Source: Nitrosospira sp. 56-18 (GTDB taxonomy: Bacteria > Pseudomonadota > Gammaproteobacteria > Burkholderiales > Nitrosomonadaceae). Taken from it: 42,372 nucleotides of DNA. The translations under genes and the position numbers were made by a program. This document shows positions 31,410-40,955 of this stretch, piece by piece; position 1 is the stretch's first letter, and every line of letters begins with the position of its first letter. Location: NCBI GenBank assembly GCA_001899235.1, contig MKVR01000052.1, forward strand, positions 1 to 42,372. The letters are read 5' to 3'. The notes below the pieces were generated by a model. The model was given only the letters and a program-made list of their open reading frames with translations. It searched no databases and had not been told where the DNA came from.

Positions 31410-31448
31410 AAAAAAGGATCGGATCCTGATCCCCCTCGAATGGATTTT

Positions 31449-31479
31449 GCAGGCCGGGTTAGCGCGAGCTTAATCCGAC
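31449..31479 (+). repeat. REP-A palindrome, strongly diverged
   Basis: GCAGGCCGGGTTAGCGCGAG-CTTAATCCGAC. Only one arm (TTAATCCGAC) matches the family well. Confidence 0.55.
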
Positions 31480-31520
31480 AATTCCGCCCTAATCCATCCG
31501 CTTATTTATACCCAGATTTT

Positions 31521-31689
31521 GTAGGTCGGATTAGCGCAGTGTAATCCGACTTCCCACTTCCCATTCCTCATCCATCCGGCTATTCATGCCCCACGCTGCG
31601 GGTTCCGCTACGCCCCGACCCCAATCGAGTGGATATAGCCCTGCCTCCGCATAGAATCTGTAGGTCGGATTAGCGCAGCGTAATCCGAC
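31521..31689. repeat. REP-A + RAYT 3'-end relic + REP-A composite
   Basis: REP-A copies lie at 31521-31550 and 31660-31689. Between them, about 31551-31653, is the 3' end of a REP-associated transposase gene on the minus strand. It translates YAEAGLYPLDWGRGVAEPAA, matching the C-terminal segment at 39431-39526. There is no transposase 5' part. The rest of 31410-32059 has no supported gene. Confidence 0.75.
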
Positions 31690-32059
31690 ATTCCGACTGA
31701 TTTGCGCCGCAATCCCGGGCATACCCGAAACTGCTTCCCACTCTTCCCGAATTACTGGTGCGGCCTCATCGATCTATTCCCGGAGTCAGTTCATGGCGTA
31801 GCCGCGTAATATCCGCGATCTCCGCAATCGGCGTTTACGTTCTCCACCGCACAGAACCATCCTGCTGCATGCGGCATCATTGCATCACGCTGTCCACGTA
31901 TTTCACTTCTGCTGTATCCCGGTTACCCCTTTGCAAGGCAGAAAACGTGGATTTTTTATAAGCCTCGGCCGTTTCTACTGCAGACCCCAACCTGCGGCGG
32001 ATGGGAACCAGATACTTCCCAACCGGTAAAACGGCTCTTCCCGATAGGAGGAAAAGAAA

Positions 32060-33439: not shown

Positions 33440-33698
33440 GATCCGCACCATGTAGCGGGGCGGAAAGAGCGTCCGGCCTGCTTCCCGTCCCTGCCCTGGC
33501 CTGCTGGCGCAAAGCTGCCGCCCCCGCAGGCTGTTTTCCTTCATTCTTCATCGAAAGATTCAATTCAGCGGCACCCGGCATCCCGCGGCCCGCAAGCTGC
33601 GACCGGCAGTTCAAACCTGGCAGTTCATGGAACTTTTATATGTAATTTGCCTTAAAATGGCTCTTTTTACTATCGATGCAAATCGTGGAGGAACGAAA

Positions 33699-34292
33699 GT
33701 GAGGCATCTGCTTATCCTGGCCGCCGGTCTCATGGCGGCGACTGTTTCCGCTTTTGCGGATACGCATGACTCTTATAAACTGCAGCTCGACGATGGCCAG
33801 ATCGCTGACGTGATACTTACCGCGAGCAACCTGTCGATAGAAGCCGCGCAGCTCGCGAGGCTGAAGGCGCGTAGCGCGGCAGTGCGCCAGTATGCTGGAA
33901 AAATAATTGCCGAGCATGGGCACGTCAATGATTCCCTGTCGCGGCTCGTGAAAAAAATCGATGTCGTCCGGGAAAACAATCCCATCAGCAGCGCCTTGAA
34001 GGCCGACGGGAAGGCAGATCTCGAAAGGCTGCGCTCGCTCCATGGCAAGGCATTCGACGAGGCTTATGTCAAGCAGGAGATCGTGCTGTACCAGGACGTG
34101 CTCGATACCATCGACAACCGCCTGATGCCCAATGCCCGCCGCGAAGAATTAAAAACGCTGCTGTACAATCTGTTTGCCCCGTTGTCGCTGCACCTGGAGC
34201 AGGCCCAGCAGATCCAGGAGGCGCTGAATGATGAACCGGGCGAAACACCGCGGGAAGGAGCGGGATTTCATGCTGGCAATCTAACTGCTTGA
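33699..34292 (+). CDS. DUF4142 exported protein (copy 1)
   Basis: 197 residues from a GTG at 33699, chosen because GGAGG lies 7 nt upstream and the product opens with a signal peptide (VRHLLILAAGLMAATVSAFA). The DUF4142 helical bundle follows: DDGQIADVILTASNLSIEAA, AVRQYAGKIIAEHGHVNDSL, then FDEAYVKQEIVLYQDVLDTI. The family is related to ferritin-like bundles and is mostly periplasmic; function unknown. A paralogue lies at 40323-40853, beyond the prophage-like segment. Confidence 0.85.
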   Translation: MRHLLILAAGLMAATVSAFADTHDSYKLQLDDGQIADVILTASNLSIEAAQLARLKARSAAVRQYAGKIIAEHGHVNDSLSRLVKKIDVVRENNPISSALKADGKADLERLRSLHGKAFDEAYVKQEIVLYQDVLDTIDNRLMPNARREELKTLLYNLFAPLSLHLEQAQQIQEALNDEPGETPREGAGFHAGNLTA

Positions 34293-34359
34293 TCGAAGCG
34301 GTTAACCGGGCCGCATAATCGAACCGCATAACCAAGCTGCTTGCCCGGATTCAGGATCG

Positions 34360-34881
34360 TCACATCCGGGCGCCAGAAACAGTGCCCAGCAGCCCCCTCG
34401 CCTCCATTTCCATGCGCAGCCTGTCCATCGCCTGGGCATGTATCGCATCCAGCGCATCGTAGGATCTGTTGCGCAGGGATGCCGCCTTGAGCATGCCGCA
34501 GCGCAAGGATGCCCTGATCTCGCGCAGCCCTATCCTTTCGCCGCAATATGCGCGGATGATCTGGTCGATGCTTCTGCGGCTGTGCACGCCCGTGCCGAAA
34601 TTCGCCGCGAGATGATGCGCAAGGATATCGGAACCGGCCGCCTCCCTGCCGAACTGGATTCTTACGTAGGCCATGTGCAGCGTCGGCAAAACCCGCTCGC
34701 ACAGCGCGAGTATCAGCGCCGCCTGCGCATGCCGGTCGTGCGCGGTCAGTTCCCCGTTTCCGCTACTCCCCCCTGCCCTGCTGGCTTCGCGCATGTCGTT
34801 GACGGAAGAAATCTTCACGATCGGCCTGCTGATGGTTTCGTAGGCCCATTTCAGGGCGTGCTCCGGGCTGCTGAACTTCAT
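34360..34881 (-). CDS. Phage-like hypothetical protein, last gene of early operon
   Basis: 173 residues from the ATG at 34881 (AAGGAGCC just upstream), which overlaps the previous gene's stop as ATGA. Mostly helical: MKFSSPEHALKWAYETISRP, HDRHAQAALILALCERVLPT, RRSIDQIIRAYCGERIGLRE. I do not recognise the family with certainty. Its place at the end of a replication operon is where lambdoid phages carry the late antiterminator Q, so a Q-like regulator is possible but unproven. Confidence 0.7.
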   Translation of the reverse strand: MKFSSPEHALKWAYETISRPIVKISSVNDMREASRAGGSSGNGELTAHDRHAQAALILALCERVLPTLHMAYVRIQFGREAAGSDILAHHLAANFGTGVHSRRSIDQIIRAYCGERIGLREIRASLRCGMLKAASLRNRSYDALDAIHAQAMDRLRMEMEARGLLGTVSGARM

Positions 34882-35246
34882 TTGCGGCTCCTTTTCGATT
34901 GATATAGACCACATTGCTTTCCGTGGCGGCGCCCTTTCGCGCAATATTTCACGACTTCCCAGGAAAGATTGTTTTCCGCAAAATAGAGCGCCGCCTCATG
35001 GACGCAGCCGTGGCAGGACTTCGCCTGCCTGCGCTCCAATACCTTCTGCGGATCACCATATTCCCAGCGCTCGAGTTGCGGGAAAGCGAAAGGAAAACCG
35101 AACCCGCCCAGGCAGGGATAATCGGATTTCGCCTCCATTGCTCTTATCCCCCCTGGCGCCGTTGTCACCTTTGTCACCTTTGCCATGCTTGCCACCCCTC
35201 CTCTCTCCATAGTCCTTCCTATAGCCGGCCCAGGTCGATACATCAT
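34878..35246 (-). CDS. Small Cys-motif phage protein
   Basis: Up to 122 residues. The start is uncertain. ATG at 35246 overlaps the upstream stop (ATGA) as elsewhere in this operon, while ATG at 35186 has a stronger GGAGG. The conserved-looking part begins at about MEAKSDYPCLGGFGFPFAFP and contains LERWEYGDPQKVLERRQAKS, C-x2-C (CHGC), and CAKGRRHGKQC. The four to five Cys and His suggest a small metal-binding site. Homologous proteins are familiar from Burkholderia-type phages; function unknown. Confidence 0.65.
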   Translation of the reverse strand: MMYRPGPAIGRTMERGGVASMAKVTKVTTAPGGIRAMEAKSDYPCLGGFGFPFAFPQLERWEYGDPQKVLERRQAKSCHGCVHEAALYFAENNLSWEVVKYCAKGRRHGKQCGLYQSKRSRK

Positions 35247-35935
35247 GATGTGGCCTGCTCATTGCCGGACTTGCCATCGCTATCCAGGGCGCCGCCCACG
35301 CCTTCGTCTCCCTGGTCCCTTTTTTCCTCTACATGCCTCAGGCTGCTGAAGCCGGGCATGGACTGGCTGGCACTTTCCCGCAGAACCCGCTCCGCCAGTT
35401 GCCTGTTTCCGATCAGCACCGGCTTTCCCGATTCGAAACGCTTGAGCTCGTTATGCGCGGTGGCAATGCCGGTCAGGACAGGGGCATAAGGCGGGCGCTC
35501 GTTGCGCGAGCGGAAGCCGCGATAGCGGTTCTCGAATTCTTTCGCGACGAATGGCCACTCCGCCTCGGATTTCGTTCCCAGCCCTATCCACCCCCCCATG
35601 TCCTGGATCACGCGGTGGATCAGCGCATCGTCGAACACCACATCGCAATAAGTACCCACCGAGCGGACCGCGCGGTCGACTTTTGCCCAGGCGCGCAATG
35701 CGGAATCCTGTGTGGAACCCTGCAGCATGCGGATGATGTCCGCGGGTTTGGGAGCAAACTGGCCAGAATCCGGATTCGCGAGATGACGATTGAATGCATC
35801 GATGATTGCAGGCAGCTCATGGCTTCTAAGCGCCGTCCACCAGACATCCAGCGCGAATCGGGACAGGCTTTTGCCATAAAATCCCATTACGCCGGTGATG
35901 CCATCGTGAAATTTCTGGAAGTCGTCTACCCGCAT
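35243..35935 (-). CDS. DUF6475 phage protein (replication-partner position)
   Basis: 230 residues. The sequence DVWWTALRSHELPAIIDAFN, HLANPDSGQFAPKPADIIRM, LQGSTQDSALRAWAKVD, then DDALIHRVIQDMGGWIGLG and FENRYRGF is the DUF6475 pattern known from beta-proteobacterial phages. It occupies the lambda P position after a DUF1376 (O-like) gene, so a helicase-loading role is an inference from order. GGAGGG precedes the ATG. It overlaps the upstream gene by 10 bp and the downstream gene by 4 bp. Confidence 0.85.
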   Translation of the reverse strand: MRVDDFQKFHDGITGVMGFYGKSLSRFALDVWWTALRSHELPAIIDAFNRHLANPDSGQFAPKPADIIRMLQGSTQDSALRAWAKVDRAVRSVGTYCDVVFDDALIHRVIQDMGGWIGLGTKSEAEWPFVAKEFENRYRGFRSRNERPPYAPVLTGIATAHNELKRFESGKPVLIGNRQLAERVLRESASQSMPGFSSLRHVEEKRDQGDEGVGGALDSDGKSGNEQATS

Positions 35936-37086
35936 GGCGAAACCCTCCTATCCGCCGCGGCGGATTGCCCTACTGGCGGTTCCACCGGCTCCCCTGGCTC
36001 TGCCGGTTCTGCCGCCGGGGCATTCCGCAATTCCGGCGGCATCCATCCCGCGGTCCCCGTATGGCTGGCCGCTTGCAGCAGTTCCTGGCCGCTGGGCATG
36101 CGCCCCTGGTGCAGAACCAGTTTTGCAGCCTCTTCACGCTGGCGCCTCACCATTCCGACCACGTAGGGAAAATTTGCTTTTCCCCGGGCCGCGGCATTTC
36201 CTGCCGCCTGCAGGAACTCCTCTTCGGTCGCGCCTGCCTGCAGCAGCGCCAGCAGTGTCGGATGATGGGGATTGCAGCCTGTCACCCCCTGGCCCATCAG
36301 CGCCTTGCAACACGCGCCGGCGGTACCCGGAGCAACAGAAGCTCCCAGGCTGCCAGTGCCTGCGTGAAAGCCAGTCCGCCCGCCGCTATCGCCACGGTTG
36401 CCGGGACGGGAATGGAGGCTGCCATGGTCCGGGGCCGGCTCCTGCTCCCGCCCCTGTTGACGGGCAGCCATTTCCGGTTCCGGCTGGTCTTTTTCCGGAT
36501 CGCCCGTCCCACAGGAATTGAAATCCGCGCTTGCCTCTTCCCGGAACGGGCGAGACTGGCGATGCAGTTCGTGCTGGCGCTGGCGCTGGTGATGGGGTTG
36601 GGACTGGTAAGCTTCGCCGCTGGGTTCGCCGTGGGTTTCGGTGTACGGGGCGGACCTGCTCCCGGAGGGTTCCTGGTCGAAACCCATGGATAACCCGTCG
36701 GGTATATCCGCACCACCGGGCTGCATCTGCCGGATTTCCGTATTTGCGCTAGCCGCCTTGGCTGGCCTGCCGCCCTTTCTGCCATTGATGCGCGCCGCCT
36801 CGATTTTTGGCCTTGCCTTGGCGATCTCGCGATCCGCGCGCTGGTTGTGGCGCAGTCCGTCGCCGCCCGATACCGGAAAGAATTGCTCCGCGACCGACTT
36901 GACAGCCTGCTGTTCCAGGCGCGTCATGGCGCGGCAAACTCTATAAAGACTGGAAAGGTCCTCCGGCAGCGGTTTCTCGACACTGAAATACGTATCCAGC
37001 AGCATCGTGTAAGCGCCATGCTCGGCGAGCGAAAGGTGCGCCGTATCGCGCTGATAGTCTCCACAATATCGTTCGTAATAATTCAT
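35926..37086 (-). CDS. DUF1376 phage replication (O-like) protein
   Basis: 386 residues. Residues 1-90 are the DUF1376/YdaU domain (MNYYERYCGDYQRDTAHLSL, AEHGAYTMLLDTYF, PEDLSSLYRVCRAMT), a winged-helix DNA-binding module. The middle (about 120-250) is low-complexity, rich in Gln, Glu, Gly and His. The end has CNPHHPTLLALLQAGATEEE and FLQAAGNAAARGKANF, as in phage initiator-type proteins. AAGGAG precedes the ATG. It is the first gene of the minus-strand operon and reads away from the repressor. Confidence 0.85.
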   Translation of the reverse strand: MNYYERYCGDYQRDTAHLSLAEHGAYTMLLDTYFSVEKPLPEDLSSLYRVCRAMTRLEQQAVKSVAEQFFPVSGGDGLRHNQRADREIAKARPKIEAARINGRKGGRPAKAASANTEIRQMQPGGADIPDGLSMGFDQEPSGSRSAPYTETHGEPSGEAYQSQPHHQRQRQHELHRQSRPFREEASADFNSCGTGDPEKDQPEPEMAARQQGREQEPAPDHGSLHSRPGNRGDSGGRTGFHAGTGSLGASVAPGTAGACCKALMGQGVTGCNPHHPTLLALLQAGATEEEFLQAAGNAAARGKANFPYVVGMVRRQREEAAKLVLHQGRMPSGQELLQAASHTGTAGWMPPELRNAPAAEPAEPGEPVEPPVGQSAAADRRVSPCG

Positions 37087-37190
37087 CGATATGCTCCTTT
37101 GCCCGCGCTGGCATTCAGATCCTATGGAGTCTCATAGGCTATCCCTGCAGGTTTACTCCAGAGGCTTCTGCGCAACCCGCATTACCCCCA

Positions 37191-37219
37191 TTATTACAAG
37201 TATAACTTGTTAATGTCAA
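37191..37219 (-). promoter_or_regulatory. Early promoter of the phage replication operon
   Basis: On the minus strand: -35 TTGACA (37219-37214), a 17-bp spacer, and -10 TAATAA (37196-37191). The spacer and part of the -10 are covered by the operator at 37196-37210, so repressor binding would block polymerase. The architecture is the same as the promoter at 38681-38709. Confidence 0.7.
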
Positions 37220-37254
37220 GCTATTCTTGTAAGCGTGGCGCAAGCGTTGCTTGT
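37196..37254. promoter_or_regulatory. Three operator sites NCAAG-N5-CTTGT
   Basis: The sites are ACAAG-TATAA-CTTGT (37196-37210), TCAAG-CTATT-CTTGT (37216-37230) and GCAAG-CGTTG-CTTGT (37240-37254). All share the half-site CAAG/CTTG with a 5-bp centre, 20 and 24 bp apart, between the divergent repressor and replication genes. This is the layout of a lambda-type triple operator. Confidence 0.75.
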
Positions 37255-37259
37255 ATTAT
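37254..37259 (+). promoter_or_regulatory. -10 box of the repressor gene; probable leaderless mRNA
   Basis: TATTAT lies 7 nt before the repressor ATG at 37266, so the transcript would start at or next to the ATG. No Shine-Dalgarno sequence is present. The third operator abuts this box, consistent with autoregulation. Confidence 0.5.
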
Positions 37260-37265
37260 GAATGC

Positions 37266-37790
37266 ATGAATATCGCGAAAATAATCCGCGAAGGGCGCGA
37301 AAAACTGAATCTGAATCAGTCAGAACTCGCTGAATTGCTTGGCGTGACGCCGCAGGCGGTGCAGCAATGGGAATCCGGCGCCACCCAGCCGCGCGGAAAA
37401 AGGCTGAACAAGATAGCTGAAGTACTCAAACTGCCATCCATTCTCATGCATTTCGGCATATTGGAGGACGTGCCGGGAAAAAAAGACGTCGCCAAGCCTC
37501 CGGAGCCGCCGCCAGGCGATCCTCCCCGAACCATCGTGGAAAAATCCGTTTCCCCCAACGATGTGCTAATCAATGAAGTAGTAAAAGCAATGCAACGAAT
37601 GTCCAAGGAAGATGCCGCCCTGCTGGTGACGCTCAGCAAGGCGCTGGTGCGCGAAGAACCGCAGTCTGCAGCGACCGGCGCGAAGAAATTGCCGGTGCCG
37701 GACCTGGCGCCGCACCCGGCTTCGGCATTTCCTCCGCGCAGGGTGCCCAGGACAACTGGAAAGGCGCGCGGAAAGACGGCAGTTCGATAG
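37266..37790 (+). CDS. XRE-family phage repressor (CI-like)
   Basis: 174 residues from the ATG at 37266. The N-terminal helix-turn-helix is clear: IREGREKLNLNQSELAELLG, VTPQAVQQWESGATQPRGKR (residues about 6-48). The C-terminal part is Pro-rich with one helix (VLINEVVKAMQRMSKEDAAL) and a basic tail. There is no LexA/CI-type peptidase domain, so it would not self-cleave; its inactivation route is unclear. The gene is divergent from the replication operon across three operators and is the likely protein that binds them. Confidence 0.85.
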   Translation: MNIAKIIREGREKLNLNQSELAELLGVTPQAVQQWESGATQPRGKRLNKIAEVLKLPSILMHFGILEDVPGKKDVAKPPEPPPGDPPRTIVEKSVSPNDVLINEVVKAMQRMSKEDAALLVTLSKALVREEPQSAATGAKKLPVPDLAPHPASAFPPRRVPRTTGKARGKTAVR

Positions 37791-37966
37791 AAGAGCGTAC
37801 AGCAGGCATCAGCCGAACCGCCGGAAATTCGAGAGGCGGGGAAGAAGGCGCGGCGACTAGCCTGCGAAAGCCTGGGCAATAACAAGACATGAGCGGCACC
37901 GGCGCCGGCACCCGTCCGTCTGGCCGCCAGGGAAATCAGGAGCGGCATCCGCAGGAGGAGATATCC

Positions 37967-38179
37967 ATGGCAAATCGCACACCCTACGACAACCTAGAGA
38001 TGATATTCGCCTTTCACATTTCGGAGAAAGCGCGAACCAGGCGCGAACAGCATATCCTGCGGTTTCCTCCGGATCTTCGGGAAGAAGAAAGGCGCCGGTA
38101 TACCCTGGAGCATGCGGTCAAGGAAGTGCTGGTGGAAGTGGCGGAAGTCAGCCTGCTCATCAGGGAGCTGGAGAGTTAG
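37967..38179 (+). CDS. Small hypothetical protein
   Basis: 70 residues. AGGAGGAG is 6 nt before the ATG, a strong start; the open frame upstream to 37889 lacks one. It is soluble, charged and helical (FHISEKARTRREQHILRFPP, LEHAVKEVLVEVAEVSLLIR). I recognise no family. The stop codon TAG is the first three bases of a MITE-like terminal repeat, so the original C-terminus may have been different. It lies 176 bp behind the repressor. Confidence 0.6.
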   Translation: MANRTPYDNLEMIFAFHISEKARTRREQHILRFPPDLREEERRRYTLEHAVKEVLVEVAEVSLLIRELES

Positions 38180-38198
38180 GGAACACCTGAACAGAGTC
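38177..38198 (+). repeat. Isolated MITE-like terminal repeat supplying a stop codon
   Basis: TAGGGAACACCTGAACAGAG, then TC, is the left end of the 14063-14340 family with one inserted base and one change. Its TAG ends the 70-residue ORF. No partner end is found downstream. Confidence 0.55.
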
Positions 38199-38250
38199 TC
38201 CGCAAGATGCCGCCAAAGACATATAATTCTGCTTTATCTTGGGAGTCACC

Positions 38251-38577
38251 ATGAAAACCATCCTTTTCGCGCTGCTCAGCATCCTTGTTCTCTCTTCCTG
38301 CGCCAGCAAGATGGCTGGTTTGCGCGAGGGCCAGACCAGGGCGCAGGTCATCAGTGCTGTGGGTCCGCCCGATGGCTACCAGCGCAGCGGCGAGTACGAA
38401 GTATTGCTCTACATCGAGCGGCGCACCAACGCCTGGTCCTATTTTTCAGGGGGCATACAGGACCTGACGGATTATTCAGTCATCCTGAAGGACGATCACG
38501 TCGTGGAATATGGCCCGGGCAGGACACATCGTCGTGATGCCGATCCTACTCCTTTCATCCGGGTTCCCGTCCGATAG
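38251..38577 (+). CDS. BamE/SmpA-like small lipoprotein
   Basis: 108 residues. The signal peptide ends in the lipobox LSSC (C17). The mature part starts LREGQTRAQVISAVGPPDGY, the BamE/SmpA-OmlA fold signature (G-x-T-x-x-x-V...G-x-P), followed by EVLLYIERRTNAW and DYSVILKDDHVVEYG. Family members sit in the outer membrane and assist the Bam complex or related assembly steps. It may be a paralogue and not BamE itself. GGGAG is 5 nt before the ATG. Confidence 0.8.
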   Translation: MKTILFALLSILVLSSCASKMAGLREGQTRAQVISAVGPPDGYQRSGEYEVLLYIERRTNAWSYFSGGIQDLTDYSVILKDDHVVEYGPGRTHRRDADPTPFIRVPVR

Positions 38578-38680
38578 CAATAAAGCAGCAAAGTCCGTCC
38601 GTATTGCAGATCCTCTCTTTTTTCAGACAATAAGTAAAAGCCGCTGAAACCCCGCACCAGGCGGGATTCACTCCCGTGCA

Positions 38681-38709
38681 TTGACAATTACAAGTATTAC
38701 TTGTAAACT
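38681..38709 (+). promoter_or_regulatory. Promoter with a fourth phage operator
   Basis: -35 TTGACA (38681-38686), a 17-bp spacer and -10 TAAACT (38704-38709). The spacer holds ACAAG-TATTA-CTTGT (38690-38704), nearly identical to the operator at 37196 (TTACAAGTAT-A/T-ACTTGT). The promoter reads toward the 87-residue phage gene at 38956. The rest of 38578-38955 has no convincing gene. Confidence 0.65.
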
Positions 38710-38955
38710 GTCTCCCGAATGCCGTAGGGAATACTGCGCTGCGGCTTCCCGCGAAACAGATGCGTAGTCCAAGCTGGCATAGCCTCTATCCTGCAAGTCC
38801 CCTGTGGCATGGAAAGACAAGCGGTCCGCGAGGAACAGGCGCGAAGAAATGTCCAGGCCGTGCCTGGCGCGGAACTCCGCCCGATTTGAAAGGGCGAGAA
38901 CAGGAAACCGCATTGTCTCGCCGCGGGAAACGTCAGGAATCAGGGGCGCGAGAAC

Positions 38956-39219
38956 ATGGAAAATGGTGATGCGTACGGCATGAATCGGGCAGGCTGGTCC
39001 GAAGCCTGGACCGAGCATCGGCCCGCGCCCCTGAATCTCACCGACACCCAGATCCTCGACTGGCTTGGCGAATACTGCGACCAGGCAATATATCGCCGTC
39101 CCTCGCCGGAATCCCGGGGTGGATTTACCCTGTATTGCTACGATATCCGGACAAGCGGCGCCACCCTGCGCGAAGCTGTTTGTCTCGCCGCAGCGAAATG
39201 GAAGGAAGCAAATGAATAA
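38956..39219 (+). CDS. Phage-like hypothetical protein
   Basis: 87 residues. The core LNLTDTQILDWLGEYCDQAI, then RGGFTLYCYDIRTSGATLRE and AVCLAAAKWKEA, is familiar from small early proteins of beta-proteobacterial phages; function unknown. Ribosome sites are weak for both ATGs (38956 and 38980), so the start is uncertain. It lies about 240 bp downstream of the operator-bearing promoter and is the last gene of the prophage-like segment. Confidence 0.7.
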   Translation: MENGDAYGMNRAGWSEAWTEHRPAPLNLTDTQILDWLGEYCDQAIYRRPSPESRGGFTLYCYDIRTSGATLREAVCLAAAKWKEANE

Positions 39220-39249
39220 CGATGATCCATGTTGCCGGTATTCGATGCC

Positions 39250-39279
39250 GTCGGATTACGCTGCGCTAATCCGACCTAC
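39250..39279 (-). repeat. REP-A palindrome (inverse)
   Basis: GTCGGATTA-CGCTGCGC-TAATCCGAC, then CTAC. A canonical copy. Confidence 0.9.
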
Positions 39280-39371
39280 CCAACTACCCAGCATGTAGGG
39301 CGTCAATAAGCGTAGCGCATTGCGCCGAAAGAAAACAGGTCAATGAAATGGGCTCTCACTCTTGAGAATTT

Positions 39372-39401
39372 GTAGATCGGATTAGCGCAGCGTAATCCGA
39401 C
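39372..39401 (+). repeat. REP-A palindrome
   Basis: GTAGATCGGATTAGCGCAGC-GTAATCCGAC, one change from consensus. It lies 30 bp beyond the 3' end of the transposase reading frame. Confidence 0.9.
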
Positions 39402-39430
39402 TTCCCACTTCCCATTCCTCCTCCATCCGG

Positions 39431-39526
39431 CTATTCATGCCCCACCCCTGCGGGTTCCGCTACGCCCCGACCCCAATCGGGCGGATATAACCCTGCCTCC
39501 GCATAGCGGTGGAAGCTCGAATACGG
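39431..39526 (-). pseudogene. Severed C-terminal segment of the RAYT transposase
   Basis: Reading on in the same frame past the TGA at 39529-39527 gives PYSSFHRYAEAGLYPPDWGR, then GVAEPAGVGHE and a TAG at 39433-39431. This is the normal C-terminal continuation of RAYT proteins, where the codon at the TGA is TGG (VREW-PYSSF). So one base change (TGG to TGA) explains the short protein. The same 3' segment is found in relic copies at about 31551-31653 and 40109-40222. Confidence 0.8.
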
Positions 39527-39976
39527 TCATTCCCGCACTGTCGCCGCCAAACCGTGCTTTACCGGATTAAAATGAATGTAATCGACATGCTGCATCATGT
39601 CGGCTTCATTTCGCAGCGCATGTTCCCAATAACGGTTTTGCCATATCGGCAGCCGTTTCTGTTGCGATTTTTCCGATACATGCCGATTTGTTGCATTTCC
39701 CGAAACCAAATCATATCGCTTGGTGAACCATGTCTTGATCAACCGCCACCGCATCGCAAAATCGGCATCTCCTTCAGGAAGCGACCAGATGCAATGCAAA
39801 TGATCGGGAAGAATCACCACCGCATCCACCTCGAAAGGATGGCGCGAGCGAACCGCGCGAAATGCCATTCGCAGTAAATCCACGGCCGCTCTGGAAGCAA
39901 AGACAGGGCGGCGTTCGGCTGTCACCACGGTGAAAAAAAATGAACCACCCGCGATCCACGCTCTCCGGTATTGCAT
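39527..39976 (-). CDS. REP-associated tyrosine transposase (RAYT), truncated by TGA
   Basis: 149 residues of a Y1-transposase of the IS200/IS605-like superfamily. It starts MQYRRAWIAGGSFFFTVVTA. The HUH metal site is HLH in LPDHLHCIWSLPEGD. WQNRYWEHALRNEADMMQHV, then DYIHFNPVKHGLA, carries the expected catalytic Tyr region. The protein ends at an in-frame TGA; another 31 matching codons lie beyond (39431-39526). Known RAYTs nick and join REP palindromes. Here REP-A copies flank the gene in opposite orientation (39372 and 39993). Whether the truncated protein is active is doubtful. Confidence 0.88.
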   Translation of the reverse strand: MQYRRAWIAGGSFFFTVVTAERRPVFASRAAVDLLRMAFRAVRSRHPFEVDAVVILPDHLHCIWSLPEGDADFAMRWRLIKTWFTKRYDLVSGNATNRHVSEKSQQKRLPIWQNRYWEHALRNEADMMQHVDYIHFNPVKHGLAATVRE

Positions 39977-39992
39977 TGGCCTCTCGTCCGTT

Positions 39993-40022
39993 GTCGGATT
40001 ACGCTGCGCTAATCCGACCTAC
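39993..40022 (-). repeat. REP-A palindrome (inverse)
   Basis: A canonical copy (GTCGGATTA-CGCTGCGC-TAATCCGAC-CTAC), 16 bp upstream of the RAYT start codon and inverted relative to the copy at 39372. Confidence 0.9.
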
Positions 40023-40078
40023 CCAACTGCAACGGCACGCTATCCCGGTCATAAGCATTTACAACCAGATTAACATTT

Positions 40079-40108
40079 GTAGGTCGGATTAGCGCAGCGT
40101 AATCCGAC
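40079..40108 (+). repeat. REP-A palindrome
   Basis: A canonical copy (GTAG-GTCGGATTA-GCGCAGCG-TAATCCGAC). It makes an inverted pair with 39993 and leads straight into a transposase 3'-end relic. Confidence 0.9.
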
Positions 40109-40222
40109 TTCACACGACTTCCCATTCCTCATCCATCCGACTATTCATGCCCCACCCCTGCAGGTTCCGCTACGTCCTGACCCTAATCGATCGGATATAA
40201 CCCTGCCTCCGCATAACGATGG
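40109..40222 (-). pseudogene. RAYT 3'-end relic
   Basis: The minus strand translates HRYAEAGLYPID, a stop, then GQDVAEPAGVGHE, matching the C-terminal segment at 39431-39526. The 5' part of the gene is absent. A REP-A copy lies on each side (40079 and 40265). Confidence 0.75.
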
Positions 40223-40264
40223 AAATGAGAAATCGCTGCATTTTCCCCGGAATTTGCAGAATTT

Positions 40265-40294
40265 GTAGGTCGGATTAGCGCAGCGTAATCCGAC
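40265..40294 (+). repeat. REP-A palindrome joined to a short RAYT fragment
   Basis: A canonical copy. On the minus strand, the bases just before it (about 40320-40296) read SFHRYAED, again the RAYT C-terminal segment cut at the same place as in the other copies. Confidence 0.85.
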
Positions 40295-40322
40295 ATCCTC
40301 CGCATAACGGTGAAAGCTCAGG

Positions 40323-40853
40323 CTATTTCTTTCTTCCCAGCGAAACCTTGATGAGCCGCGCTCGCTCATGATGATCGGTGAGGGACCGCCGCATTTCCCG
40401 CAGCAATTTCTTTAATCCCTCGTTCCGGGCATCAGGAATCAGCTTGTTTTCCAGGAGGTCGAGCATATGCTGGTGGGATTCGACCTCGTGATTGATATAA
40501 TCCAGGTCGAACAGTATGCCGCTCTGCTTCCCGAGATTCTCAAGAAACTTTTCCTCTTCCGCCTTCAGCTCATCGCTTATCGGACCGGATCTCGGCGTGA
40601 TTCCCCGCCAGGCCACCCAGTCGCCGAATCGCGAACTGGACCGCTGGTGCTCCTCCGCCAGATCACGCCCGAACATCTTCACGTCCCTGTTGGTGGATAC
40701 CGAATAGGCCAGGTTGCCGGCATCGATTTCAGCCCGGTTCACCGCCATGACGATACCCACAATCTCCGCGTCGTCCAGCGGCATGCCGGTCTCGGCAAAA
40801 ACGGCAAAAGCCTGGACCGCCAGGGCGACAGCCAGGATAAGCAATTTTTTCAT
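40323..40853 (-). CDS. DUF4142 exported protein (copy 2)
   Basis: 176 residues from the ATG at 40853 (AGGGA upstream), where a signal peptide starts (MKKLLILAVALAVQAFAVFA). The helical bundle shows DDAEIVGIVMAVNRAEIDAG, VKMFGRDLAEEHQRSSSRFG, FDLDYINHEVESHQHMLDLL and ENKLIPDARNEGL. It aligns along its length with the DUF4142 protein at 33699-34292 but is clearly diverged. Periplasmic location is likely; function unknown. Confidence 0.85.
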   Translation of the reverse strand: MKKLLILAVALAVQAFAVFAETGMPLDDAEIVGIVMAVNRAEIDAGNLAYSVSTNRDVKMFGRDLAEEHQRSSSRFGDWVAWRGITPRSGPISDELKAEEEKFLENLGKQSGILFDLDYINHEVESHQHMLDLLENKLIPDARNEGLKKLLREMRRSLTDHHERARLIKVSLGRKK

Positions 40854-40955
40854 GGAAATCCCTTTGTTGACTGGATGGTGCGGCATGCCGTCACCCGGAT
40901 GCCCGGCCCCCTGGCCGGAATGGGGCACCTCCTGGAAAAGGCCGCGCTTGCCTTT

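Follow-up and report, generated by a model that had tools for sequence, protein, structure and literature searches.

A lambda-like operator region conserved across Nitrosospira, probably a domesticated prophage immunity region

The window analyzed here is a 42,372-nucleotide stretch of DNA from Nitrosospira sp. 56-18 (contig MKVR01000052.1), which encodes on its plus strand (37266-37790) a 174-aa repressor with a Cro/CI-type helix-turn-helix (HTH), a PQAVQQWE helix within it, and a proline-rich conserved tail. The solved structures nearest to the HTH are those of P22 C2 and the 434 repressor, while the C-terminal half is predicted to form two helices followed by the conserved proline-rich tail (pLDDT 71, pTM 0.35). 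A Pfam scan of the repressor returned HTH_3 and HTH-type families only and no peptidase domain, in agreement with the proposal of an earlier note on this DNA that the protein has no self-cleavage domain. A full-length, single-copy ortholog, 56-67% identical to the window copy, is found in 22 of 23 genus genomes; only G015 lacks one, an assembly that is 80% complete and divided into about 450 contigs. Of 24 loci recovered in a repressor scan, 16 belong to Nitrosospira/Nitrosovibrio and the other eight match mainly in the HTH, and the remaining 102 genomes of the family give weak matches (best E 8.1e-9) that lie nearly all within the HTH, one of which (G076) covers residues 10-119 and contains an internal stop.

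Three operators separate the repressor gene from the operon that diverges from it. O1 (OR1-like; 37196-37210, ACAAGTATAACTTGT) is a perfect ACAAG-N5-CTTGT site, kept in all 22 loci, and lies in the spacer of a predicted left promoter, TTGACA-N17-TAATAA (37191-37219, minus strand), that serves the DUF1376 operon and has a -35 box matching at five or six of six positions in 22/22. One arm of O2 (OR2-like; 37216-37230, TCAAGCTATTCTTGT) overlaps this -35 box, and O3 (OR3-like; 37240-37254, GCAAGCGTTGCTTGT) adjoins the -10 box of the repressor promoter, TATTAT (37254-37259, plus strand). The earlier note had described three NCAAG-N5-CTTGT sites in this region, the first overlapping the TTGACA-N17-TAATAA promoter; all three are present and perfect, and the promoter reads as claimed on the minus strand (37219-37191). 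A fourth exact site, O4 (OL-like; 38690-38704, ACAAGTATTACTTGT), had been overlooked. It occupies the spacer of a predicted right promoter, TTGACA-N17-TAAACT (38681-38709, plus strand), whose -35 box is 6/6 in 22/22 loci, so that the left and right promoters are nearly identical in build, each with an operator in its spacer. A consensus scan of 34200-39600 picks exactly these two promoters, reading the left one as N18-AATAAT with the same -35 box; two promoters are expected by chance in such a scan, and the scan alone is therefore no proof of either.

The exact pattern CAAG-N5-CTTG occurs four times in the 42-kb window, a count reached by none of 100 shuffles (mean 0.9), so the sites are above chance; with one mismatch allowed there are 12 occurrences against 16.6 expected, which is no excess. 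Three perfect sites precede the repressor gene in every one of the 22 orthologous loci, and their arms are identical at 66/66 sites, while the N5 centers vary, with majority identity falling to 0.41. The sites were chosen by their arm pattern, and no locus dropped out through that choice. The spacing from O2 to O3 is 24 in 22/22 loci, whereas that from O1 to O2 is 20 in 18 loci and 19 in four. O4 was found in 22/22 loci, each with one to three perfect OL-like sites; a second perfect site lies 20 bp before O4 in nine of them and is degenerate in the window species.

The repressor promoter is built differently. Its -10 box is TATTAT, or one change from it, in the 22 loci, and the best -35 candidate matches at only 2-4 of six positions in 22/22 (mean 2.5, against 2.7 at random positions). 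The center of O2 lies 43 bp upstream of the predicted mRNA start, placed seven bases beyond the end of the -10 box, in all 22 loci, a constancy that restates the fixed O2-O3 spacing and holds in the five loci with longer leaders as well. Given the lack of a good -35 box and the placement of O2 at a fixed, lambda-like position upstream in 22/22, auto-activation by O2-bound repressor is the most likely reading of this promoter from its sequence. A simpler circuit, in which the repressor merely represses itself, O2 has no activating role and the geometry is a legacy of phage ancestry, is less likely but deserves real weight: weak promoter activity can arise from a -10 box without a -35 partner, and two loci (L045 and L047) reach 4/6 in the -35 box at a spacing of 18. 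Against that simpler circuit, no locus exceeds 4/6, and the distance from O2 to the -10 box is fixed in 22/22 while that between O1 and O2 varies.

The earlier note had also placed a TATTAT box beside O3, 7 nt before the repressor ATG, with no Shine-Dalgarno site and a probable leaderless mRNA. The box is there and no Shine-Dalgarno site is seen, but the gap to the ATG (37266) is 6 nt. By sequence, the box lies 6 nt before the ATG in 17/22 genomes, where a leaderless start fits, and 45-53 nt before it in 5/22. These five loci (L053-L056 and L058, in G010, G003, G013, G007 and G019) carry 39-47 additional nucleotides before the ATG and represent a natural leadered version of the leaderless-type start. 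Auto-activation would not depend on a leaderless form, which is possible in 17/22.

The lambda OR region is the textbook switch of this kind, and its known relatives are found mostly in phages and prophages. In lambda the divergent early promoter is overlapped by operators, the cI mRNA is leaderless, and CI bound at OR2 activates PRM from a distance like that of O2 here. When the two regions are measured alike, the centers of OR3, OR2 and OR1 in phage lambda (NC_001416) lie 19, 42 and 66 bp from the cI ATG and those of O3, O2 and O1 in the window at 19, 43 and 63, differing by 0, 1 and 3 bp. Both systems place three operators between divergent repressor and early promoters, as in 22/22 of our loci, with operators overlapping the early promoter, and in both a further set of operators lies beyond the repressor gene, separated from it by other genes (O4, 22/22). 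The Nitrosospira region departs from lambda in its DNA words, in having sites of 15 rather than 17 bp, in its one to three perfect OL-like sites, and in the absence of cro, of a cleavable C-terminal domain and of any late gene recognized in the window proteins scanned. The logic of the lambda OR region, which the earlier note had seen reproduced here, is therefore strengthened by the operator geometry, by the OL-like second promoter and by conservation in 22/22, but what is conserved is not an intact switch. Activation by CI from OR2 is described in PMC8630535.

To the left, the operon begins with a DUF1376 protein (35926-37086, minus strand) with primosomal relatives among the PHROGs, followed by a DUF6475 protein (35243-35935, minus) whose phage relatives stand beside replication genes; both were matched in the same 17/22 loci. 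A small Cys-rich protein (34878-35246, minus) is less well kept (18/22; dN/dS 0.31 on 16 sequences). The last gene (34360-34881, minus) encodes a 173-aa predicted AlpA/Q-like antiterminator present in 22/22 with a dN/dS of 0.11, and it is retained also in the five species that lack DUF1376 and DUF6475. These five form a clade (L038-L041 and L043, in G008, G004, G006, G005 and G009) that has lost the two genes; all of its operators persist, together with the left promoter and the last gene of the operon.

The profile of this last protein gave a single match in the PDB, to AlpA, weak (E 0.068) and nearly full length. The predicted model has eight helices at moderate pLDDT (70, with four other models at 41-48), the number published for AlpA (PMC9371919), and two AlpA chains are its sole confident Foldseek matches (prob 1.00, TMq 0.61 and 0.64, E 2.2e-3 and 1.1e-2), no fold match falling below E 0.001. 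The predicted model thus shows the AlpA/21Q fold with a C-terminal HTH. Relatives of the protein occur in prophage-like regions of the genus (L169-L171) between early and lysis/packaging genes, which is the place of Q; the functions in these regions were named by eye from translations, apart from a capsid match in L169 and DUF6475 in L171. All three, and a fourth (L117, G000:C54:16-204), are prophage-like regions in which an AlpA/Q-like gene accompanies early genes that are either RusA-like by eye or of the DUF6475 family. Behind this gene L170 and L171 have a terminator, CCCACC...GGTGGG plus a T run, and in L170 promoter-like and terminator sequences can be made out there by eye. A search of 23 genomes with the 172 bases that follow the L170 copy gave no target promoter for the antiterminator; beyond chance-level matches the terminator part alone recurs (for example in G021, G002, G016 and G011), and four short motifs from the region are not conserved across the 22 locus stretches. 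The antiterminator-like protein was not found in 369 other genomes sampled across the class. Phage Bcep176 was considered as a close relative and set aside: among 18 of its proteins compared, DUF6475 alone matches (E 3.5e-94), and its gp2, which resembles the antiterminator by eye, gives no match (E 0.68).

To the right of the repressor, three small genes are present in 22/22 loci on the plus strand: a 70-aa protein without a Pfam match (37967-38179; dN/dS 0.11), a 108-aa protein that looks like a lipoprotein by eye and has a sub-threshold DUF6491 match (38251-38577; dN/dS 0.19), and an 87-aa protein (38956-39219; dN/dS 0.17) for which there was no match in Pfam and no PHROG below E 0.07. The order of repressor, antiterminator-like, 70-aa, 108-aa and 87-aa genes is the same in 22/22. 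Ahead of the 87-aa gene lies a conserved 124-nt block (38749-38872, plus strand) that is probably a structured leader RNA. Under strict filters it occurs once each in 21 of the 23 genus genomes, always at this locus, and the 102 further genomes of the family have no copy; it is partly lost in G019, and G015 lacks the locus. Copies are 77-86% identical to that in the window. A consensus structure of 34 pairs, with 98.7% of cells paired, contains eight pairs with changes on both sides, compared with 0-3 in slid controls, although a single alignment served both to build the structure and to assess it. Covariation by further pair types was reached by 45 of 500 shuffles, the five double changes at one pair all come from a single clade, and the window leader alone folds no better than shuffles (z 0.82); for the last two reasons we regard the structure as probable and not as proven. 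Other identities for the block were considered and rejected: six genomes translated gave no consistent open frame, no Rfam family matched near a gathering score, and the phage collection contained no match. With some support from covariation, it is a candidate for a new RNA family.

No late, structural, integrase or lysis gene was recognized among the 18 distinct window proteins scanned. O1 is separated from the first left-operon gene by 90-213 nt in 22/22 loci, and the longest ORF between them, with 60 nt of the gene included, is 55 aa in 22/22; with no longer ORF and no room in this gap, there is no cro. The description of the region in the earlier note as an intact lambda-like switch fails on these points, since cro, the cleavage domain and any late gene among those 18 proteins are all missing. 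Its underlying picture, an intact or mobile prophage or satellite in which the switch still decides between lysis and lysogeny, has in its favor that the locus genes are of phage type and that prophage-like regions of the genus carry similar early genes and the same antiterminator family. We consider it very improbable nonetheless. Cro is absent, the region is present as one copy per genome in 22/23, and of seven left-flank window proteins scanned, five match families that we judge cellular and two match nothing. The PF05065 capsid has no match in the genome of the window itself; it occurs in 13 of the 23 genus genomes, sharing a contig with the locus in four, at least 112 kb apart, and lying on other contigs in the remaining nine.

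Several features of the surroundings were also recorded. Short repeats around GGATTAGCGCAGCGTAATCCGAC, perhaps REP-like by eye, flank the locus at 39245-40320 and 31420-31700, and the same repeats flank a Y1-transposase-like ORF (39527-39976, minus strand). Two DUF4142 genes (33627-34292 and 40323-40928) face each other across the locus, and several species have further DUF4142 matches in its vicinity; matches to the left one enter none of the counts given here. Genes of the left flank (those at window 30723, 32060 or 32933) were seen in the fetched stretch for 15 of the 22 loci and unseen in seven.

The locus genes are under purifying selection, with dN/dS medians of 0.11-0.31 over eight genes (0.21 for the repressor), each from 7-47 pairs with dS between 0.05 and 1.0. 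Divergence at synonymous sites approaches saturation (median pS 0.64-0.70), and the conservation of the locus therefore reflects more than mere recency. Transketolase was rejected as a species marker because it occurs as two types in the genus, and rpoB was used instead. Spearman correlations of protein distances with those of rpoB were 0.27 for the repressor, 0.39 for the antiterminator-like gene, and 0.41, 0.30 and 0.57 for the 70-, 108- and 87-aa genes, levels reached in 16, 1, 0, 0 and 0 of 999 permutations, respectively. This weak-to-moderate tracking makes vertical descent likely, with some exchange possible. A further alternative is that the locus is what remains of a prophage, decaying neutrally and no longer of any use. 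Decay would account for the absence of late genes, cro and the peptidase domain, for the gene loss still under way in some species, for the short Cys-rich gene of L039, and for an early stop near the end of the G019 repressor. It sits poorly with the dN/dS medians, with operator arms unchanged at 66/66 sites, and with a leader block that remains 77-86% identical despite near-saturated synonymous divergence, and we hold it to be unlikely.

We also followed the operator words beyond the genus. Ten loci outside it encode repressors with the same or a similar HTH recognition helix, a likeness due in part to how they were picked, as the search patterns contained QAVQQWE. In eight of the ten, one or more perfect CAAG-N5-CTTG sites lie in the 130 bp ahead of the start; the search patterns did not include the operators, the start codons were assigned by script, and three of these eight loci are close Acinetobacter-type relatives. 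A pattern scan of viral sequences returned 28 stretches with the promoter-operator module, about the number that we estimate to be expected by chance for 16 fixed bases, and only one of them, the short contig L236 (IMGVR_UViG_3300020176_001130), is convincing, with a lambda-type immunity region. As in Nitrosospira, it has the same operator words and a DUF1376 gene in the divergent operon. It carries three OR-like sites, a pair of OL-like sites spaced by 20 bp, and a TATAAT box 6 nt before the CI ATG. It differs in that its CI contains a Peptidase_S24 domain and that a Cro of YdaS type, which shares the helix, is encoded divergently. The contig was found by its promoter-operator module, the repressor, Cro and further sites not being in the pattern. 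Taken together, the loci outside the genus and L236 appear, by sequence, to tie the CAAG-N5-CTTG words to this repressor helix.

The existence of viral contigs with the same words (L035, L036 and L236) raises the question of whether the retained function is superinfection immunity, with the repressor silencing incoming phages that share these operators. This would leave the conservation of the antiterminator-like gene, the leader RNA and the 87-aa gene unexplained. In addition, a repressor of the motif list was present in L236 alone among the 28 viral stretches, L218 and L230 have three sites each and no such repressor found, and the repressor in the prophage-like region L169 is by eye of a different type. 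We rate immunity as the retained function a rather doubtful account. Among seven locus proteins compared with the PADLOC models of anti-phage defence, the repressor alone matched, through its HTH. Targets elsewhere in the host were also sought: genome-wide counts of perfect ACAAG-N5-CTTGT are about those of a reversed control pattern, with few sites, and no further conserved operator target was seen among the matches listed for the Nitrosospira genomes. The genome of the window has two such sites out of the locus, both inside open frames of more than 100 codons.

Among published systems, the nearest design that we found is the immB region of N15-type phages. According to PMC4488713, the immB of N15, phiKO2 and PY54 comprises three OR and two OL sites, a repressor, Cro and Q, so that, as here, a repressor is joined to a divergent operon leading to an antiterminator, and leaderless mRNAs are reported for PY54. 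These are phages with a Cro, whereas the Nitrosospira locus is chromosomal, genus-wide and without cro. The PaaR2-YdaS/YdaT region of cryptic prophage CP-933P in E. coli O157:H7 likewise shares lambda-like logic, a leaderless start and a CI-like repressor without sequence similarity to that of lambda, and is unlike the Nitrosospira locus in its Cro analogue YdaS and its toxin-antitoxin pair (PMC8630535). In Pseudomonas aeruginosa the chromosomal, phage-type AlpR repressor controls the antiterminator AlpA, an arrangement predicted here also, and its authors favor a prophage origin; AlpR cleaves itself, and the genes under AlpA are the lysis genes alpBCDE (PMC7969949 and PMC9371919), while the Nitrosospira repressor has no cleavage domain and no lysis gene was recognized among the 18 distinct window proteins scanned. 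The locus was not found described in the listed titles and abstract openings of open-licence literature on Nitrosospira phages and prophages and on domesticated switches. Prophage induction by stress in N. multiformis 25196 is the subject of a reference entry in PMC11849493.

We therefore return to the reading that accounts best for the whole: the locus is likely an ancient lambda-type immunity and early-control region of a prophage, fixed in the ancestor of Nitrosospira and kept by selection, and in this sense probably domesticated. Its sequence, geometry, conservation, selection and homologies are observed directly, and from them we infer binding, auto-activation, antitermination and the trigger. 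Repressor bound to O1 and O2, 20 bp apart, would silence the left promoter, and repressor on O4, and in some species also on the second site at a distance of 20 bp, would silence the right promoter. At O2 it would activate its own promoter, which has no -35 box, and at O3 it would turn that promoter down. A signal would then remove the repressor, SOS self-cleavage being unlikely as the trigger, upon which the left operon would make the AlpA/Q-like antiterminator and the right promoter the structured leader RNA and the 87-aa protein. The switch apparently controls a transcription antiterminator and a conserved RNA. In the absence of cro there is a single positive feedback; the circuit may stay bistable and would reset unlike lambda.

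More tentatively, and with the balance tipped slightly against it, domestication may have made a lambda-type switch into core regulatory circuitry for the whole genus, which answers to a host signal and controls host genes or resident prophages in trans. If so, the switch would have shed cro and SOS cleavage and come to act through an AlpA-like antiterminator and a new structured RNA under repressor control. The lambda-like geometry is held to genus depth without cro or cleavage, and the 22 natural versions make it possible to ask which elements of lambda's design cannot be dispensed with. In the soil ammonia-oxidizing Nitrosospira, nitrifiers of environmental importance, the locus supplies a candidate structured RNA and a possible example of core host regulation derived from the control circuitry of a prophage.
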